DNA of 53,694 nucleotides, taken from contig JAMDDE010000040.1 in the NCBI GenBank assembly GCA_023489235.1, positions 1 to 53,694 on the forward strand. The letters are read 5' to 3'. Positions 8,285 through 18,839 of this stretch are shown here, piece after piece. The translations under genes and the position numbers were made by a program. Numbering within the stretch: position 1 is the stretch's first letter; each line of letters begins with the position of its first letter. Below the pieces are notes generated by a model. That model had not been told where the DNA came from and made no database searches. It was given only the letters and a program-made list of their open reading frames with translations. The stretch comes from Actinomycetota bacterium. GTDB taxonomy: Bacteria; Actinomycetota; Acidimicrobiia; Acidimicrobiales; JAMDDE01.

Positions 8285-10068
<1,784 letters not shown>

Positions 10069-10312
10069 CGTCTTTGTTCTATTTTAACGCAGAAATCACA
10101 AACCAGTATCACTCATATACGATACTTGTCGAGGGAGTGGAACCAACACGAGATTTACGAGATCTTGGTTATGAAGTGGGGACATGGGAGGCTGCAGGGA
10201 ACCCAGGACCTCCGCTGTACAGTCATAGAGGCGTCCCATAGTTGCCAGCCATTAAATATTGGATCATAAGTTCAACCTGAAGTTGTAGATACAGGAAGGA
10301 GAGGGAGGATAA

Positions 10313-10783: not shown

Positions 10784-10991
10784 TCCCGTTGGTATCCAGC
10801 TGCCACTTGAGCCGATACCTCGGTAGGCAGGTTCTTTTCTGGATAGGGGAGAGATCGATCTATGGTCGAATGACCGAGATTGACTCCCACCTTTCTTTTA
10901 GGTTATTCTCTTCTTGCCGGATGAGGCTCCGGTGAGCGTCAGCTCGAAGTACCTCTGCTGCATATTTATTTCTCTAGCAGATGGTTGATGG

Positions 10992-11043
10992 CCTCTGTGC
11001 ATGATGAAAAGGTAATTTGCACGGAGGTCGGATGCTTAAGTGA
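10992..11043 (+). promoter_or_regulatory. hairpin over the Shine-Dalgarno, with a 3-codon leader ORF, at the Ehr operon head
   Basis: CCTCTGTGCA (10992-11001) pairs with TGCACGGAGG (11018-11027), 9 Watson-Crick pairs plus one G-U, around a 16-nt loop. The right arm contains GGAGG, the only good Shine-Dalgarno for the GTG at 11040. ATG CTT AAG TGA (11032-11043) is a minimal ORF whose TGA overlaps that GTG as GTGA. Both features suggest translational control of the operon. The rest of the 256-bp gap after bcp holds only a small CCGGA/TCCGG hairpin and presumed promoter sequence. Confidence 0.45.
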
Positions 11044-11999
11044 AACTGGCACCGTATACAATACAGGTTGCTCAAGAACTTACTATCGTAGTAGGGGCTC
11101 CTTTAGTAAGCGGATTCACTGCTAAGGTCGAAGCTATTTTGCAGGGTCGTCGAGGTCCCCGTATATTGCAGCCCTATTACGACCTAGCCAAGTTCTTCCG
11201 TAAAGAAATGCTCATGCCGGACGAGGCTAGCCCCTTGTTCATACTCGCTCCCTTGTTGGCTTTTGTTTGCTATTTAGTGGTACCCCTGCTGATACCGGTT
11301 CTAACCAGTTTTCCTCTCCCTTTGGGATATATGGGAGATATATTAGGTGGTGGTATAGTACTATCTACAGCAGGATTTCTGGTCGCTTTGGCGGGCACGG
11401 AGACGAGCAGTCCATATGCTCAGCTAGGAAGCAGCCGAGCTATGACCTTCGGTGCTTTGATCGAGCCAACCGTCCTATTCGTAGTGTTTGTCGTGGGTTT
11501 GATTACCTCTACCGACCTGCCTTATGCAATGTCTCAAGCGGTGCACTCTTCGTTAGGCGAAGTCCTGGCACCGGCCCACATTCTAGCGGCCATCGCCTTC
11601 TTCATGGTTGTTCTAGCAGATACGGGTCGTATACCCATAGAAACTCACTCGGGAACCCTCGAGTTTGGGATGATAGAGGAAGCTAGAGTCCTCGAACACT
11701 CTGGTCCTGCTTATGCCTTTTTGGCTTGGGGCTCTTCGATCAAGCAGCTCATCTTGTATACGATCTTGATCGATGTGTTCGTAGCCCCTTGGGGTCTGTC
11801 TTCCTCGAGGGAGTTGGGGTCAGTATTGTTGGCGGTTCCTGCTCTGTTGAGCAAAGCGATGGGGCTAGGCGTCGTCTTCGCTCTGGTAGACAATTCCTTC
11901 TCCAAACTTCGTCTGTTCAAAATACCAGAGTTCATAGTTGCCGCTTTTGTGTTAGCCGTCCTTGCCGTAGTTATCTTCTATTTGGGGGGAGCGAGTTGA
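11040..11999 (+). CDS. HyfC/HycD-like membrane subunit (NuoH-related)
   Basis: This 319-residue integral membrane protein of roughly eight helices is homologous to HycD/HyfC of group 4 hydrogenases and to NuoH of complex I. In those complexes this subunit joins the soluble module to the ion-pumping module. Diagnostic stretches are KVEAILQGRRGPRILQPYYD, the amphipathic linker typical of the family, and the acidic loop LEFGMIEEARVLEHSGPAYA. The start is GTG at 11040. The stop overlaps the next ATG as TGATG. It heads the six-gene operon 11040-18839. Confidence 0.9.
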   Translation: MKLAPYTIQVAQELTIVVGAPLVSGFTAKVEAILQGRRGPRILQPYYDLAKFFRKEMLMPDEASPLFILAPLLAFVCYLVVPLLIPVLTSFPLPLGYMGDILGGGIVLSTAGFLVALAGTETSSPYAQLGSSRAMTFGALIEPTVLFVVFVVGLITSTDLPYAMSQAVHSSLGEVLAPAHILAAIAFFMVVLADTGRIPIETHSGTLEFGMIEEARVLEHSGPAYAFLAWGSSIKQLILYTILIDVFVAPWGLSSSRELGSVLLAVPALLSKAMGLGVVFALVDNSFSKLRLFKIPEFIVAAFVLAVLAVVIFYLGGAS

Positions 12000-12664
12000 T
12001 GTTTGCTCCTCCTTCTGTACTCACTAGTACTGCTGAAGTGGTTGCCATTGTTGTACTGCTTGCAGCCTTCGGAATGCTCCGCGCTCCACTCATTACCTCA
12101 CAGATCAATCTCTATCGATTGCAATCATTAGCGGTTACTGCTCTAGCTGTTGTAGTAGGAGCAACTCATGGTCTGGTAGATATTTATATTCTGGCAGTTG
12201 CTTCTTTCCTGCTCAAAGTCATAGTCGTGCCCGCGGTCATACTTTCCTTACTCAGAGAGGCTGACAGCGATATAGCTCATTCCAATGTGCTCAAGGTGCC
12301 ATCCATGATTCTTGTCGCGTTGGTGGTGTCATTATTTGGTTTCATCACCGTTGACGCCCTTCATCTGCGCTCTGTTACACTGCCGGTTCCGGCTCTGGGG
12401 ATAGCAGTGGCAGCTATCTTAGTTTCATTTGTCATCATTGTTTTCCGTTCAGATGTGATCTCTCAAGCAATGGGCTTTTTCTCGCTGGAGAACGCTGTGT
12501 CGATGGCGAGCTTGGCAGTGGCTACAGCGGTTCCGCTGGTAATGGAACTCGCTTTTTTGTTCGACCTCTTGGTGGCGGTCGTAGCGTTTGGAATGTTAAT
12601 GCGAGTTCATCATCGTAGAACTGGCACTCTTTCTACTGATCCACTGGATCGTTTGAGAGGGTAG
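11999..12664 (+). CDS. HyfE-like membrane subunit
   Basis: This 221-residue, very hydrophobic protein with about six or seven predicted helices resembles HyfE (HycP in mycobacteria), a subunit whose N-terminal part resembles NuoK. The pattern LLAAFGMLRAPLITSQINLYRLQSLA is typical of the family. ATG at 11999 overlaps the preceding TGA and follows GGGGGGAG; longer frames starting inside hyfC are not needed. It forms part of the membrane arm with the two antiporter-like subunits. Confidence 0.82.
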   Translation: MFAPPSVLTSTAEVVAIVVLLAAFGMLRAPLITSQINLYRLQSLAVTALAVVVGATHGLVDIYILAVASFLLKVIVVPAVILSLLREADSDIAHSNVLKVPSMILVALVVSLFGFITVDALHLRSVTLPVPALGIAVAAILVSFVIIVFRSDVISQAMGFFSLENAVSMASLAVATAVPLVMELAFLFDLLVAVVAFGMLMRVHHRRTGTLSTDPLDRLRG

Positions 12665-12669
12665 GGAAG

Positions 12670-14343
12670 ATGGTGCAGTTTGCCTTGGTGGTCATATTCG
12701 GTATTCCCATCTTGGCTGCTATAGGGTCCTTTGCATTTGGTGGAAGATTTGCTGCGGGAGCGAGTACGTCTGGTGGAGTTCTCACTTTTGCTGCTTGTCT
12801 GAGTTTGATAGGTGATGGCGGGGAGGGAAAGCATCTCCAGTTGGGCCCTTGGATATCAGGAGATGCTCTCTCAGTGGTGTTCACTCTTGTTGTTGGAGGA
12901 CTATATGCTGGGGCGGCACTTTATTCTGTAGGATATTTGGCTCAGCACAGTGGTGGGCATAGCAAACGGTTTACACGAAGGTACTACTTAGGTCTGAATA
13001 TCTTTTGTTGGGCCATGGTTGTCGCTCCTTTAGTGAATGGTTTGGCTTTGATTTGGGTAGCCATAGAGATCACCACTGTTGTATCGGCTCTTTTAGTGGC
13101 TGCCGATGGAACTGAGTCGTCAGCGGAGGCAGCTTGGAAGTACCTTCTCATTGCTTCTATGGGGCTTGGGATAGCGTTACTGGGCACGATAATCGCTTAT
13201 GCAGCTGGGGCTCTTGCTAGTGGCCATGGCTTGGGTATTGGCTTTACTCCTCTTTTTGGTGTCTCTCGACGAATGTCGCCTGACATGATCCGATTTGCAT
13301 TTGTGCTTGCTGTACTCGGTTATGGAACCAAGATGGGCCTGGCTCCAGTCCATACGTGGCTACCAGATGCCCACTCTGAAGCCCCTACGCCTATCTCGGC
13401 TCTGCTCTCTGGAGCTCTTCTGGCAGTTAGCTTTTATGCAATTTTGCGATACTGGCAGTTAGCTCGCATTGTGGTCGGTGCAGCATTCTGTCGGGATGTG
13501 CTTCTTGGTTTCGGCATCCTCTCCTTACTGCTGGCCTCTTTGTATTTGCTGTCTCAGAGGGACATTAAAAGGATGTTCGCTTACTCGAGTATTGAACATA
13601 TGGGAATAGTGGCCATAGGCATGAGCTTTGCAGCACCTATAGCCATCACTGGCGTGTTGCTTCAAGTACTTTCTCATGCAGCAGCAAAAGGAACTGCATT
13701 TTTTGGGGCAGGAGTGATCAAGGAAAAGATGCACACCAAGGACATCTCCAAACTCAGCGGAGGAATGCGTCTGTTGCCCTGGAGCGGTCCACTTCTCATG
13801 CTTGCAGTATTGGCTCTGTCTGCTCTACCACCATTTGGCATATTCCGAAGCGAGTTCATGATAGTTGCAGGAGGATTGCAGGACTCCAAAGATGTATTAG
13901 CTGCAGTATTAATCGTGTTCGTCACCTTGGCATTCCTTGGTATTAGTTGGTCTACCACCAAGGTGTTGTTGATTCCCCCCGAAGAGACAGAAGAGCCAAT
14001 AACTAATCACTTTGGTATGAGAAGTGAGGGTAGCCCACTATCTGTTTTGGATCGCGTGGACGAAGATCCATCCAATCGGACATTCAAAAACGAGCCGATA
14101 TCGGAGCGTGTGGAAACAGTAGGATATCCGGTGGCCGAGGAAGGAACTCCTGATCTCCCTGCTTACAGAGCAAGAAGAGGGGAGATCAGCATCTTGATGG
14201 TTGTTCCTATGGTCGTTTTCATCTCTGTCCTGTTGCTGTTGGGGGTCCATGTGCCGGGTAGTCTTGCTCATTTGCTCAGTCAGGCTACATCCGAACTGGC
14301 TGGGAAGGTAGGTGTATATCACACTATGGTCGGAGTACGATGA
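12670..14343 (+). CDS. HyfF-like antiporter-type proton-pumping subunit
   Basis: This 557-residue protein belongs to the NuoL/M/N - MrpA/D family and is closest to HyfF/HycQ. Residues used for ion translocation in the family are present: Glu133 in WVAIEITTVVS, Lys157 in AAWKYLL, Lys221 in GYGTKMGLAPVHTWLPDAH, and the His/Lys pair of LSHAAAKGTAFF. Between the penultimate and last helices a hydrophilic loop of about 70 residues (around 440-510) is unusually long. The ATG at 12670 follows GGTAGGGAAG. The stop overlaps the next gene's start as ATGA. Pumping residues appear intact although the catalytic subunits are not. Confidence 0.88.
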   Translation: MVQFALVVIFGIPILAAIGSFAFGGRFAAGASTSGGVLTFAACLSLIGDGGEGKHLQLGPWISGDALSVVFTLVVGGLYAGAALYSVGYLAQHSGGHSKRFTRRYYLGLNIFCWAMVVAPLVNGLALIWVAIEITTVVSALLVAADGTESSAEAAWKYLLIASMGLGIALLGTIIAYAAGALASGHGLGIGFTPLFGVSRRMSPDMIRFAFVLAVLGYGTKMGLAPVHTWLPDAHSEAPTPISALLSGALLAVSFYAILRYWQLARIVVGAAFCRDVLLGFGILSLLLASLYLLSQRDIKRMFAYSSIEHMGIVAIGMSFAAPIAITGVLLQVLSHAAAKGTAFFGAGVIKEKMHTKDISKLSGGMRLLPWSGPLLMLAVLALSALPPFGIFRSEFMIVAGGLQDSKDVLAAVLIVFVTLAFLGISWSTTKVLLIPPEETEEPITNHFGMRSEGSPLSVLDRVDEDPSNRTFKNEPISERVETVGYPVAEEGTPDLPAYRARRGEISILMVVPMVVFISVLLLLGVHVPGSLAHLLSQATSELAGKVGVYHTMVGVR

Positions 14344-15794
14344 TCATCGATAGTTCATCGATGCACTATACGGAGGCTACATCTCTAGCTTCTGCAGTAG
14401 CTAGGAAGTTGAGAAGAGGATTTCGTTTCAGTGGGCTCTTTGTAGTACCGGAGAACGAGAGGTTGTTGCTGAGGGCAGTCATTACCTGTGGTGCTGAGGT
14501 CGAGATCATTTCATCGAGCTTGCCCAGGGATGCTACTGGAGAGAGGGCACCTTCCTATCCAGCGATAAGCAGGCTGGTACCCTCGGCAGAATGGTATGAA
14601 CGTGCTCTTTATGATCGGTTTGGTGTAATGCCAGAAGGTCATCCACGGCTCATCTCTTTGCTACGGAGGAATGATGAACCAACTACTTTTTCCTCCATTG
14701 GAGAAGGAGTGTTCACTATCCCGTATGGCCCGGTGCGTTCGGGAGTTTTCGAATCAGTGGAGTATCTGATCGAGAGTACAGGAGAGGACATTCTGCACCT
14801 TGGTGTTGGATTAGCTAGCAAGACCAGGAGTATCGAGGAGCGATTCGTAGGAGTAGATGTATCTACAGGTATTTTGCTTGCGGAGCGAGTAGAGGGAATA
14901 GCTAGTGTTGCTCATGCTCTTGGTTTCGCCCAGGCTATCGAAAGCATTTGTTCCATCCGAATTCCCAGAGCGGCAGAGCTGCTTAGAACTGTCCATGCTG
15001 AGCTGGAGAGAGTGGTCAATCACCTTGATGTCATCGTTCGTCTTTGTGAAGCAGCCGGATTAGCTGTAGCCCATGCCAGATTCTCTTTGTACAAAGAACA
15101 GTTGATGCGTTTAAGGATTGATATGTGTGGCAATCGATTTGGGCGCGGAGTGGTCGTACCAGGGGGGATAGCAAGTCTACCGAATAGAAGCTCTCGTGAG
15201 CTCATAGATTGTCTGGACGAGATTGAAGATGCACTCAAGCAGGATACTGATCTACTCATGAGAAGTCCTTCGTTCATTGATCGCCTGCGCGGCAGCGGTG
15301 TGCTTACCGTTGAGGAAGCAGAGACATTTGGTTTGCTTGGTCCCGTTGGACGGGGGTCGTCGCTCAGCCAAGATGTAAGGGTTGATCGTCCCTATGCTGC
15401 ATATGCGGAGGTAGGTCCTTCCTCGCCAGTACTTGGTAGAGCAGGTGATGCCCTTAGCAGGACAGAGGTTAGGTTGGATGAGATCTGGAGTAGCTTTTCC
15501 ATTATACGACGGGCTATACGAGGCTTAGCGGAGGTAAACACTTCAGGCTTGGACAGCTGGCAAAGATCTCTACAGTTATTGGATGGAGAGGCTTTGGGGT
15601 GGGCCGAGGCTCCACAAGGTGAGCTGCTCGTCTTAGTTGCGCTAGAAGGTGGAAGAATTGCTTACACCAGGGTAAGGTCGGCTTCTTGGCACAATTTGCA
15701 GGCCCTCCCAAGAGCTTTCAAAGGAGATGTCCTGACCGACTTTGCCTTCATCGAAGCCAGTTTTGGCTTGTCTCCAGCGGGAGCAGCCCTATGA
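14340..15794 (+). CDS. HycE-like large subunit lacking NiFe ligands (Ehr type)
   Basis: This 484-residue protein combines an N-terminal NuoC-like part (WYERALYDRFGVMPEGHPRL, residues ~85-105) with a NuoD/hydrogenase large-subunit part. True group 4 hydrogenases bind Ni-Fe with two CxxC motifs. Here the first, normally R-x-CGIC, reads AERVEGIASVAHALG with Glu185 and Ala188 replacing the cysteines. The second, DPCxxC, is missing because the protein ends in SFGLSPAGAAL. The surrounding helix (VAHALGFAQAIE) is otherwise well conserved. It cannot hold an NiFe centre and so is not a hydrogenase; it resembles the energy-converting-hydrogenase-related class. It is translationally coupled to HyfF by ATGA. 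Confidence 0.88.
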   Translation: MIIDSSSMHYTEATSLASAVARKLRRGFRFSGLFVVPENERLLLRAVITCGAEVEIISSSLPRDATGERAPSYPAISRLVPSAEWYERALYDRFGVMPEGHPRLISLLRRNDEPTTFSSIGEGVFTIPYGPVRSGVFESVEYLIESTGEDILHLGVGLASKTRSIEERFVGVDVSTGILLAERVEGIASVAHALGFAQAIESICSIRIPRAAELLRTVHAELERVVNHLDVIVRLCEAAGLAVAHARFSLYKEQLMRLRIDMCGNRFGRGVVVPGGIASLPNRSSRELIDCLDEIEDALKQDTDLLMRSPSFIDRLRGSGVLTVEEAETFGLLGPVGRGSSLSQDVRVDRPYAAYAEVGPSSPVLGRAGDALSRTEVRLDEIWSSFSIIRRAIRGLAEVNTSGLDSWQRSLQLLDGEALGWAEAPQGELLVLVALEGGRIAYTRVRSASWHNLQALPRAFKGDVLTDFAFIEASFGLSPAGAAL

Positions 15795-15863
15795 GGAGTA
15801 ATCCTCGGCGTTCGTCCAGATCTCAACTCAATGGTAGCAATTGCTCCAGCGGGAGCAGCCCTA
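15772..15863 (+). repeat. 20-bp direct repeat at the end of the HycE-like gene
   Basis: CTCCAGCGGGAGCAGCCCTA occurs at 15772-15791 and again at 15844-15863. The 72-bp period equals 24 codons. The first copy encodes the last residues SPAGAAL before the stop; the second lies between genes in the same frame. The intervening 52 bp include the stop codon and a small GAGGA-GTAA-TCCTC hairpin. Confidence 0.7.
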
Positions 15864-15879
15864 CTGGGAGGAGATGTCG

Positions 15880-16680
15880 ATGCCTTGGCTGACCAGGGGA
15901 TTGAGGAACGGGATAGTAACTACTCACTATCCAAGACGGAAGGATGGCTATGGCATGTATTGGAGGGCGGCTGTTCAAGTATGTTCTTCGAACAGCAGTG
16001 CCAAGAGCGACTTGGATGGAATTGTTGGAGTTGCTGCCGACAAATTTGCTCTGGAAAGATTGTGCCCGACCGAAGCTATCTCGGTAGATGGTGTGGGTAT
16101 CTTTCTCGATCGGGGCAAGTGCATTTTGTGTGGCGCCTGTGTAGCTGCTCGCCCAGATCTATTTGCTTTCGAGGCCGACATAGAGCTGGCTGTCTTGGAT
16201 CGTCGGATGCTAATAGTTCCTCGAAGCGAGGAAGAAGAGGATGATCTGGACCGCATCAAGGAGGAACTTCGAAACCGCACTGTAGCACTTAGGCGATCGG
16301 TGCATATACGTCACGTAGATGTGGGCTCTGACGGTAGCGACGAATGGGAGATCTCTGCTCTTACCAATCCAGTTTACGACATTGCCAGATTGGGGATTTT
16401 CTTCACGGCCAGTCCTCGTCATGCTGACATCCTTCTTGTAACTGGGGTGGGAACTCCCGGCATGACTGAATCGTTGCAAGTTACTTTGGAGGCAATGCCC
16501 AAACCCACAGTGGTGATGGCGGTTGGATCGGACGCTGTCAGTGGTGGCATTGTGCAACCGGGTAGAGGGGTGGGGCAACTACTCGATGTGGATATCTGGA
16601 TTCCAGGCTCTCCAGCTAGTCCGTTCAGCATTCTCCACGGTATCTGCTTGGCTGTGGGGATGTTGAAAGGGGATCGATGA
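15880..16680 (+). CDS. fused ferredoxin-hydrogenase small subunit (HycF-HycG/NuoB-like) lacking proximal cluster ligands
   Basis: This protein of about 266 residues fuses a ferredoxin-like region (residues ~1-100) to a NuoB/HycG-like region (~145-266). The ferredoxin part keeps Cys62 (LCPTEAI) and Cys81, Cys84, Cys87 (CILCGAC), with Arg91 where the next cysteine is expected; these four can ligate one [4Fe-4S] cluster. In the NuoB-like part the four proximal-cluster cysteines are replaced: the CxxC before EWEI reads D151-G-S-D154, GAC becomes GSD218, and PGCP becomes PGS244P. The fold is clear from SPRHADILLVTG. ATG at 15880 follows GGGAGGAG; a TTG at 15841 is also in frame. It overlaps hyfB by 4 bp. 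Confidence 0.85.
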   Translation: MPWLTRGLRNGIVTTHYPRRKDGYGMYWRAAVQVCSSNSSAKSDLDGIVGVAADKFALERLCPTEAISVDGVGIFLDRGKCILCGACVAARPDLFAFEADIELAVLDRRMLIVPRSEEEEDDLDRIKEELRNRTVALRRSVHIRHVDVGSDGSDEWEISALTNPVYDIARLGIFFTASPRHADILLVTGVGTPGMTESLQVTLEAMPKPTVVMAVGSDAVSGGIVQPGRGVGQLLDVDIWIPGSPASPFSILHGICLAVGMLKGDR

Positions 16681-18839
16681 TTACTGGCTTGATAGCTGCC
16701 AGCTTCTCTCTATTGGCGCTGGCGTTCCTGATCCAACCGCTACTCGGGATAGAACGTCGGATTTATCGACAGATTCCAGCTGCTCTTACGGGAGCGGCAT
16801 CTACTTTGTTGGCAGTTGCCGGAGGAGCCTCCATGAATAGAGAGCGTCCCGTTGTCATGTCATTGGGGGGATTCTTGGAAATTGGTCGCCAGGCTTTGGT
16901 CATTGACCACCTGTCCGGCATGTTTCTGGTGCTCGTCTCCGTGATAGCGGTAGCCGTGTCAGCTTGCTACATCTCTTATGCGGGATCGCATGGACTGCAA
17001 CACTCTAGATGGAGCGGCTCTTTGTACGCGCTGTTGATCGCTTCAGTCACCTCTGTGCTGCTTGCAGGAGATGTCTTTGTGTTCTTGTTTGCCTGGGAGA
17101 TTTTGAGTCTCTCGTTCTACGGCCTTGTTGCTGTTGGAGCGAGCTCACCTTCACTTGTTCGGTCGGTTGGAACAATTCGGTCATCTGCTGATTCTTTTCA
17201 CCATCGCGAGGATAGGATACTGGCAAGGAAAGGCTTTGCCTCGCAAGTTGCTCGAGATCCAGAAGCTTCCTGGATAACTTTAGGGGCCAGCAAGATTGGT
17301 GGGGCATCTTTACTGCTTGGCCTGTTACTAGCTGCTGTTCATGCAGGAAGCATGAGTTTTGCCATGTGGCATGGGCTAGGTCATGGAGACATCCAACAGG
17401 TTGTCTGGGCGCTACTGGTAGTTGGGTTTGGTGCCAAGATAGGTCTTGTCCCCTTCGAGGCATGGATGCCAAGAGGATATGTTGCTGCAACTGGCCTGTC
17501 AAGGGCAGCAATGGCTGGAATAGCAGTTAACGTAGGGTTCTATGGATTTTGGCGTTTTCTGGGCCTTCTGGGATATCCACCAGCATGGCTAGATGTAATC
17601 GTTCTCGTGTTAGGAGCTCTAACTGCCATTGGCGGAATTGCCTTTGCTACTGTGCAGTCCGATCTTGGACGTGTATTGGCTTATTCAAGCGTAGAAAATA
17701 GTGGTATTATCATCACTGCTTTTGGTGTTGCCTTGACAGGTGCTACCACGAACGAGGTTCCACTAGTGGCAGTAGGGTTGTTAGCTGCCACCTCTCAAGT
17801 GGTCGCTCACGCCCTGGGCAAGTCTCTCACCTTTGCTGCTACGGCTCACCTGGAGTTGGCGTCTGGCAGTTTGTCGTTGGATGACATGAAAGGACTAGGG
17901 CATCAGGTGCCCTATGTAAGAGCAGCCTTTGCAGTTGGTGCTGCTAGTCTAGCTGGACTACCTCCCAGTATTGGGTTTGTCTCTGAGTGGTTTGTCCTGG
18001 AGGCACTTATGCAACAGTTCAGAGTGCATGACTTGCCTCTTAGACTTGCTCTAGCTACTGCTGGAGCGGCCGTAGCCCTAACAGTAGGTTTTGCCGCCTT
18101 GGCGTTCCTACGTATTCTCGGGCTGACCATTTTGGGGAAGGGAAAGAGAGCAGCTTATGCGAGTGGAGGGGAAGGAGTAGCTTCCAGATGGGGGCTTGGT
18201 GTACTTGCCCTAGGCTGCCTTGGCCTTGCTGCGATCACTCCTTGGGAGTTCAGGTTCATTGCTAGAGGGCTGTCGCAGCTCGTACCGGTGAATGTAGTAC
18301 AACAAGCTCTACGCTCTCCATTTGTCCTTCAGCCTGTCTTTTCTGGTTTCTCCATCCTTTCCCCGTCATGGCTGTGGATTACCATGCCACTCCTCTTAGT
18401 GGTAGTCGTGCTAGCGGCCCTGCTGCTCTCTGGAGGCAGATACATATCAGTTAGAAAGGTGCGACCTTGGAGGTCGGCAACCCTGGAGAGGTCCGAGTCT
18501 TTTTCCTATACCTCTTTTGCCTTTGCTAATCCTGCCCGTCATATTCTGGCTAACATCCTTGGAGCGAGAAAGCAGGTCAGTCAGATCGATCTTGCTCCTT
18601 TCGATGAAGCTGAGCTGGGTGAATCTACAGTTCCCGTCTGGACTTTTTACAGTCGTACAGTGCACGAACATACCGTCACCGATCCAGTTGTACGCTATCT
18701 ACTGCAACCAGTAAGAAAGATGCTTCTTTTCATTAGCAAACAAGCCAAGTGTCTTCAATCGGGCAAGTTAGCACTTTATATAACTTATATGCTAATAGCC
18801 TTGCTAGGACTATTAGCTGTGGTGGCCTCCTTGCGGTGA
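16677..18839 (+). CDS. HyfB-like antiporter-type proton-pumping subunit
   Basis: This 720-residue membrane protein of the NuoL/HycC/HyfB family is the last gene of the operon. Translocation residues of the family are retained: Glu141 in LFAWEILSLSFYG, Lys206 in LGASKIGG, Lys254 in GFGAKIGLVPFEAWMP, and the His/Lys motif VAHALGKSLTF. A hydrophilic insertion of about 35 residues (~160-198, VRSVGTIRSS onward) follows the Glu helix, and a long soluble loop precedes the last helix (~600-690). It starts with an ATGA overlap. Its stop at 18839 lies 5 bp from the convergent lpqB stop, leaving no room for a separate terminator. Confidence 0.9.
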   Translation: MITGLIAASFSLLALAFLIQPLLGIERRIYRQIPAALTGAASTLLAVAGGASMNRERPVVMSLGGFLEIGRQALVIDHLSGMFLVLVSVIAVAVSACYISYAGSHGLQHSRWSGSLYALLIASVTSVLLAGDVFVFLFAWEILSLSFYGLVAVGASSPSLVRSVGTIRSSADSFHHREDRILARKGFASQVARDPEASWITLGASKIGGASLLLGLLLAAVHAGSMSFAMWHGLGHGDIQQVVWALLVVGFGAKIGLVPFEAWMPRGYVAATGLSRAAMAGIAVNVGFYGFWRFLGLLGYPPAWLDVIVLVLGALTAIGGIAFATVQSDLGRVLAYSSVENSGIIITAFGVALTGATTNEVPLVAVGLLAATSQVVAHALGKSLTFAATAHLELASGSLSLDDMKGLGHQVPYVRAAFAVGAASLAGLPPSIGFVSEWFVLEALMQQFRVHDLPLRLALATAGAAVALTVGFAALAFLRILGLTILGKGKRAAYASGGEGVASRWGLGVLALGCLGLAAITPWEFRFIARGLSQLVPVNVVQQALRSPFVLQPVFSGFSILSPSWLWITMPLLLVVVVLAALLLSGGRYISVRKVRPWRSATLERSESFSYTSFAFANPARHILANILGARKQVSQIDLAPFDEAELGESTVPVWTFYSRTVHEHTVTDPVVRYLLQPVRKMLLFISKQAKCLQSGKLALYITYMLIALLGLLAVVASLR

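Follow-up and report, generated by a model that had tools for sequence, protein, structure and literature searches.

We found that a six-gene operon of the complex I superfamily, lying behind a predicted fluoride riboswitch in the window (the whole stretch of DNA analysed, 53.7 kb), encodes a small subunit, HyfI, in which aspartates and a serine replace the four proximal-cluster cysteines, and that the loss of these cysteines is common to a whole clade. As judged from the residues encoded, no known set of ligands would allow either the NiFe site or the proximal cluster to form. Our leading reading, to which we give a probability of about one half, is an Ehr-type membrane complex of six subunits, inducible by fluoride, whose redox chain was dismantled stepwise and whose ion or proton translocation was kept for pH and ion homeostasis. 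The Ehr complexes are the energy-converting hydrogenase-related complexes, reportedly defined by Marreiros et al. in 2013.

Ligand positions of the small subunit HyfI

The open reading frame of HyfI is uninterrupted, and its ATG at 15880 is backed as the start since the homologues begin with M(A/P)W there, directly after the stop of the upstream gene. According to Pfam, the C-terminal half belongs to Oxidored_q6 (PF01058, 2.9e-17), the NuoB/HycG family, and the N-terminal part matches the single-cluster ferredoxins Fer4_15 and Fer4_13. The features of the gene are as follows:

15880-16680, + strand: small subunit HyfI, an N-terminal single-cluster ferredoxin domain fused to a NuoB-like domain, with D151, D154, D218 and S244 at the positions of the former proximal-cluster cysteines
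16063-16140, + strand: [4Fe-4S] site kept in the ferredoxin domain, codons of C62, C81, C84 and C87
16330-16341, + strand: codons of D151-x-x-D154 (sites 1 and 2), with D151 at 16330-16332 and D154 at 16339-16341
16531-16533, + strand: codon of D218 (site 3)
16609-16611, + strand: codon of S244 (site 4)

The preliminary description had read these four residues as replacements of the proximal cysteines, and both the intact frame and the alignment bore this out: D151, D154, D218 and S244 align with the four proximal [4Fe-4S] cysteines of E. coli HycG/HyfI and P. furiosus MbhJ. In a mechanical alignment with NuoB, whose two N-terminal cysteines are adjacent, three of the four sites coincide. An AF2 model of HyfI built with 10 sequences had a mean pLDDT of 58.8, too weak for pocket distances, and a Foldseek search with this weak model ranked HycG, NuoB and MbhJ at the top. 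The genome of the window also encodes a separate canonical NuoB with its cysteines (L001) and a second hydrogenase-type small subunit.

For the search of homologues, we drew three overlapping genome samples, one from the class (395 genomes), one from the phylum (397) and one from the order (397), and added one genome-contig scan, one family around a Mycobacterium match, and plasmids. Among the sampled small subunits, 42 form one clade, here called the acid clade, with none of the four proximal cysteines. Their hosts are mostly actinobacterial MAGs together with some named Actinomycetes, including Acidimicrobiaceae MAGs, Actinocatenispora, Humibacillus, Mycolicibacter, Jongsikchunia and Mycobacterium. 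Because 42 homologues of one clade have the replacements, a sequencing or chance effect is excluded. The residues at the four sites (n = 42 each) are:

Site 1: D 41, N 1
Site 2: E 23, D 16, V 3
Site 3: D 40, E 2
Site 4: S 31, A 7, D 2, N 1, gap 1

The expected conservation of Asp and Ser across a clade thus held strongly at sites 1 and 3 and fell short at sites 2 (E/D/V) and 4 (S/A/N/D), which are moderately conserved. By entropy, sites 2 and 4 rank 91st and 83rd of 129 columns, a middling position, and therefore the pocket is better described as acidic at two to three places than as a rigid four-ligand motif. No close relative with cysteines at these sites was found within the acid clade. Substitute cysteines, the other objection that the preliminary description had raised, were rejected for the acid clade: its NuoB-like domain holds no conserved cysteine, with none at all in 30 of the 42 members, one in 11 and two in a single member, all at scattered positions.

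The preliminary description did not mention two features, the single-cluster ferredoxin domain that most members retain beside the NuoB-like domain, and the fluoride riboswitch upstream of the operon.

Partner subunits and probable staged loss of the electron path

HyfI belongs to an operon of six genes, HyfC-E-F-G-I-B, at 11040-18839. Its five partners are:

11040-11999, + strand: HyfC, NuoH-like membrane subunit, GTG start (PF00146, 1.2e-33)
11999-12664, + strand: HyfE, NuoK-like membrane subunit (NF008556, hydrogenase 4 membrane subunit, 3.3e-20)
12670-14343, + strand: HyfF, antiporter-like membrane subunit (PF00361, 1.3e-49)
14340-15794, + strand: HyfG, NuoCD-like large subunit with none of the four NiFe cysteines (PF00346, 1.1e-37)
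16677-18839, + strand: HyfB, antiporter-like membrane subunit (PF00361, 3.4e-32; hydrogenase 4 subunit B NF005086, 7.9e-103)

Motif comparison placed E, A, S and G of HyfG at the four NiFe-cysteine positions of HycE, which confirms the earlier statement that the loss goes beyond NiFe alone, the ligands of both sites being absent. By paired motifs, the four NiFe cysteines are missing from every fluoride-switched complex examined, and a stray cysteine occurs at one C-terminal HyfG position in a few members (e.g. L086 and L042). The first NiFe position is Glu in the acid clade and mostly Ser in the others. In the KHRG motif of HyfG, the window has Thr where nearly all relatives retain the His, the residue that is the quinone-site His in complex I. 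Among the open reading frames of 9-24 kb, we found no FdhF/HycB-type genes for electron input from formate dehydrogenase and no NuoE/F/G-like frames of an NADH-oxidising module. A TPP riboswitch at 9970-10081 of the window, on the - strand, precedes a thiC-like gene (8285-9979).

In the membrane arm, the residues by which antiporter-like subunits of this superfamily conduct protons are preserved. HyfC D100, E142, E208 and E219 are conserved with E. coli HycD/HyfC, and the conserved residues of HyfE include E168, E187 (E/D) and D193. HyfF (E133, K221, H336, K340, E395) and HyfB (E141, K254, H378, K382, E437) are conserved as well, and these residues make up the Lys/Glu/His pathway by which Mrp-type antiporter subunits are recognised. 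Many Arg and His residues are conserved in the acid clade only, among them HyfC R41/H203, HyfE R32/H208 and HyfB R276/R526.

The loss of several catalytic motifs might suggest a decaying former hydrogenase without function. We consider this extremely improbable and rejected a pseudogene, since many genera and families share the six intact genes in unchanged order, both the replacements and the membrane residues are conserved, and there is covariation in the riboswitch. The view that the replacements were selected rather than decayed is thereby supported: the acids are kept even though identity within the NuoB-like domain of the clade falls to 55% at the extremes, and operon and switch are intact throughout.

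We then considered the NuoB-like domain in a tree from which the four trait columns had been removed, and the 42 acid-clade sequences fell on a single branch (support 99/92). The next branch (87/78) comprises four proteins with C, C, P and S at the four sites, and the following one (99/91) six proteins with all four cysteines (CCCC), whose fused N-terminal domain has two ferredoxin clusters. The CCPS sister (L188-L191, operons L240-L243) is an intermediate state. Its members have displaced cysteines nearby (AACGPACGGG) and the ferredoxin part as a separate gene, and they too lie behind a fluoride riboswitch. In the acid clade, one ferredoxin cluster of the two remains, and C62, C81, C84 and C87 are all present in the 38 members (38/38) that possess the domain. 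L014, L216 and L217 lack the ferredoxin domain as well as any cysteine at the four proximal positions, leaving a small subunit without a cluster ligand set; this lineage retains operon and riboswitch despite the loss. The clusters therefore look to have been lost stepwise, in an order inferred from the NuoB-domain tree.

Outside the clade, a protein of the Allomeiothermus silvanus plasmid pMESIL01 (L089) has T, D, E and S at the four sites, with an Ehr-type operon and a single-cluster ferredoxin domain. Its loss of the proximal cysteines is independent of that in the acid clade, and no convincing fluoride riboswitch was found at this locus. One contig (L235, G931:C128) carries an acid-clade operon together with a 39%-identical paralogous operon, the two being convergent.

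One [4Fe-4S] site is invariant in 38/38 members with the domain, which speaks for a continued importance of redox or sensing in most of them and against a non-redox reading. The complex might accordingly still be a redox enzyme, whose ferredoxin cluster passes electrons from a soluble donor to an acceptor, with the acids binding a metal (Fe, Mn or Mg) that completes the chain. Three carboxylates and a serine at the former ligand positions would make a plausible metal site, and the MBS complex offers a precedent, its proximal cluster being itself catalytic with three cysteines (PMC7684303). We nevertheless regard this as rather unlikely. Neither the second ferredoxin cluster nor the proximal cluster remains, therefore no wire is left; one lineage without even the last cluster still has operon and switch; and site 4 is Ala in 7/42 and site 2 Val in 3/42 members.

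Predicted fluoride riboswitch and fluoride genes of the hosts

Upstream of HyfC, the window contains two predicted RNA elements:

10917-10998, + strand: predicted fluoride riboswitch aptamer of variant form, P2 being long and separated from P1 by an additional hairpin
10990-11029, + strand: expression platform, a 12-bp hairpin holding the GGAGG ribosome-binding site at 11023-11027 (MFE fold)

The aptamer runs in the order CCGGATGAGGCTCCGG, inserted hairpin, long P2 and GTTGATGGCCTC, and the pseudoknot GAGGCU/GGCCUC is present, so that the conserved core of the aptamer, comprising P1, P2 and the pseudoknot, is found in the window. Rfam RF01734 gave no match in the window at gathering or relaxed thresholds, and five loci of the clade or its relatives reach the gathering score upstream of the operon. 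Clade elements have the loop, pseudoknot and P2 core in common with RF01734; they differ in that many have the extra P1-P2 hairpin, and the window's element lies below Rfam detection.

Inspection by eye first revealed this element. To test it, we built a covariance model, R1, from 13 relatives (alignment A2) and held the window out. In A2, 94.7% of cells are paired and 10 pairs show two-sided change. In 500 shuffles, neither the pairing score nor the covariation score of A2 was attained once, and slid registers drop to 29-56%. On the window, R1 scored 40.3 bits (E = 5.2e-11), the sole match in the 53.7 kb up to E = 10. Wherever the DNA upstream of a clade operon was seen (35 operons), the element is present: R1 found 34 (24 held out), and one, at L251, with a longer insert, was recognised by eye. 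It is also upstream in the CCPS and CCCC fluoride sisters. At non-fluoride Ehr loci, R1 found no match (L075-L079, E up to 0.5; L248-L249, E up to 0.1).

In the MFE fold, the platform hairpin and the aptamer pseudoknot compete for GGCCUC, since the 3' side of the pseudoknot pairs with the GGAGG before HyfC. Fluoride is therefore predicted to turn translation on, the platform acting as a translational ON switch, and most clade operons have a comparable predicted anti-SD hairpin.

In plasmid relatives, the operon adjoins genes for CrcB, enolase (eno), inorganic pyrophosphatase and DUF190, and a CrcB gene adjoins it in G384 and G401. Enolase and pyrophosphatase are fluoride targets and often stand under fluoride riboswitches (PMC11139923). 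An island on a B. cenocepacia plasmid (L088, NZ_CP073671.1) has seven fluoride riboswitches in 16.7 kb, with dynamin at the start of the island and pyrophosphatase, HAD hydrolase, DUF190, a Cys-bearing complex and CrcB as the other riboswitch genes.

The genome of the window (2.17 Mb, 93% complete) has riboswitch candidates only at the HyfC-B operon and a dynamin-like gene, and a pattern search gave none further. The second candidate is weak (28.4 bits) and precedes a dynamin-like GTPase at L171:4408-6269 (G000:C30). In G059, the only candidates are at the operon, a dynamin gene and a pair of MutS-like genes (L177, G059:C31, 5146-8288), and dynamin genes behind fluoride riboswitches occur in both G059 and G173. 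CrcB was missing from 8 of the 16 clade genomes tested, the window's included (drafts, 93-97% complete), and therefore no riboswitch-controlled transport system other than the complex was found in some hosts. A CLC protein, counted whether of the fluoride type or not, is present in all but one tested genome, with one in the window's genome.

These counts bear on the possibility that the complex itself exports fluoride (F-/HF), in which case the membrane arm would move fluoride, perhaps with protons, and the acidic pocket would act as a gate. The genomes without CrcB, the few other riboswitch candidates (in the window's genome and G059), and the many clade-specific Arg/His of the membrane subunits speak for it. 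However, the other 8/16 genomes do have CrcB, twice adjoining the operon, and all but one have some CLC protein, whose fluoride type is not reliably classified; the genomes tested are also drafts. To our knowledge, no member of the complex I superfamily carries fluoride, and we consider direct export unlikely.

Relation to known complexes and proposed function

The acid-clade complex resembles the Ehr complexes in having the group 4 hydrogenase subunit set (HyfB/C/E/F/G/I-like) without NiFe ligands, and Ehr-type complexes are its nearest Cys-bearing relatives. Unlike them, it sits behind a fluoride riboswitch and has no proximal cysteine, whereas the sampled Ehr relatives (L018, L020-L022 and others) are CCCC, except L089; that retained proximal cysteines define the Ehr type is our assumption. 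HyfB, C, E, F, G and I are homologous to those of formate hydrogenlyase-2/hydrogenase 4 (E. coli Hyf, Hyc). Compared with the group 4 [NiFe]-hydrogenases and formate hydrogenlyase, however, the acid clade lacks the NiFe cysteines, the proximal cluster cysteines and the HycB/FdhF genes, and has one ferredoxin cluster instead of two. With complex I (NuoB/NuoCD/NuoH/NuoK/NuoL-N), it has the fold families and coupling residues in common, as well as an acid (Glu) at the first NiFe-Cys position; it differs in lacking the tandem cysteines of the N2 cluster (compare E. coli NuoB, L084), an NADH module in the operon, the quinone-site Tyr in the aligned motif and, in the window, the quinone-site His. 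The MBS complex, the sulfane sulfur reductase of P. furiosus, has likewise lost the NiFe ligands and changed its proximal-cluster coordination, but it retains this cluster for catalysis, whereas the acid clade has no Cys ligand at all.

The hydrophilic arm could instead be a regulatory cap that opens the membrane arm in response to fluoride or pH, which its acidic pocket would sense, perhaps by means of Mg2+. Conservation of the acids without electron centres would fit such a role, as would the Glu in place of the first NiFe cysteine, found in the acid clade and not in its sisters; fluoride riboswitches themselves bind F- via Mg2+ (PMC11139923). Binding of Mg-F by the pocket is speculation, though, and we hold this to be very unlikely.

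We favour a complex that still moves ions. Nearly all electron-carrying metal sites are lost and acids stand in their place, therefore we regard the complex as a probable transporter of ions or protons rather than a formate hydrogenlyase. On fluoride accumulation, the riboswitch would free the ribosome-binding site and the complex would be made; ions or protons may then pass through HyfB/HyfF/HyfC/HyfE without hydrogen or quinone redox catalysis. Its most likely role would be that of a cation/H+ exchanger, which would offset the acidification and the drop in proton-motive force that follow from HF entry. The least certain points concern the Asp/Asp/Asp array in the old electron path, which together with the HyfG Glu could relay protons or cations, and the remaining [4Fe-4S] cluster, which could be a structural element or a sensor. 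The wider proposal, that a branch of the complex I superfamily has turned into a fluoride-induced non-redox transporter of ions (H+, a cation or F-/HF) with carboxylates in the old electron path, we put forward somewhat more tentatively than our leading reading. We know of no complex I-type antiporter subunits that act alone with a full hydrophilic arm attached. Entry of HF acidifies the cell and diminishes its proton-motive force, to which antiporters are a usual response, and Na+/H+ antiporters rank second in frequency among the classes found under the fluoride riboswitch (PMC11139923).

The crcB riboswitch has been noted upstream of 'formate hydrogen lyase' genes since 2010 (PMC2864571), a link that a 2024 review explains by formate oxidation (PMC11139923), and we found no paper in the open-access literature that describes this loss of cluster ligands. 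We assume that these published 'formate hydrogenlyases' are of the same family as our complexes. The fluoride-switched complexes that we examined have no NiFe site and the acid clade no proximal cluster, therefore the explanation by formate oxidation fails for them. Going by the ligands encoded, the acid-clade complexes cannot be hydrogenases, and the label 'formate hydrogenlyase' is unfit for this clade. If the reading as a non-redox transporter is true, it would recast the riboswitch-linked 'formate hydrogenlyase' as part of fluoride and pH defence. The family also provides a natural experiment in which the electron wire of a complex I-type machine was removed in stages, from four cysteines to two, to none, and finally to no cluster ligand in the small subunit, with the ion-moving arm kept. 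Such staged loss lets one ask what the arm does without redox, a question central to the coupling mechanism of complex I.
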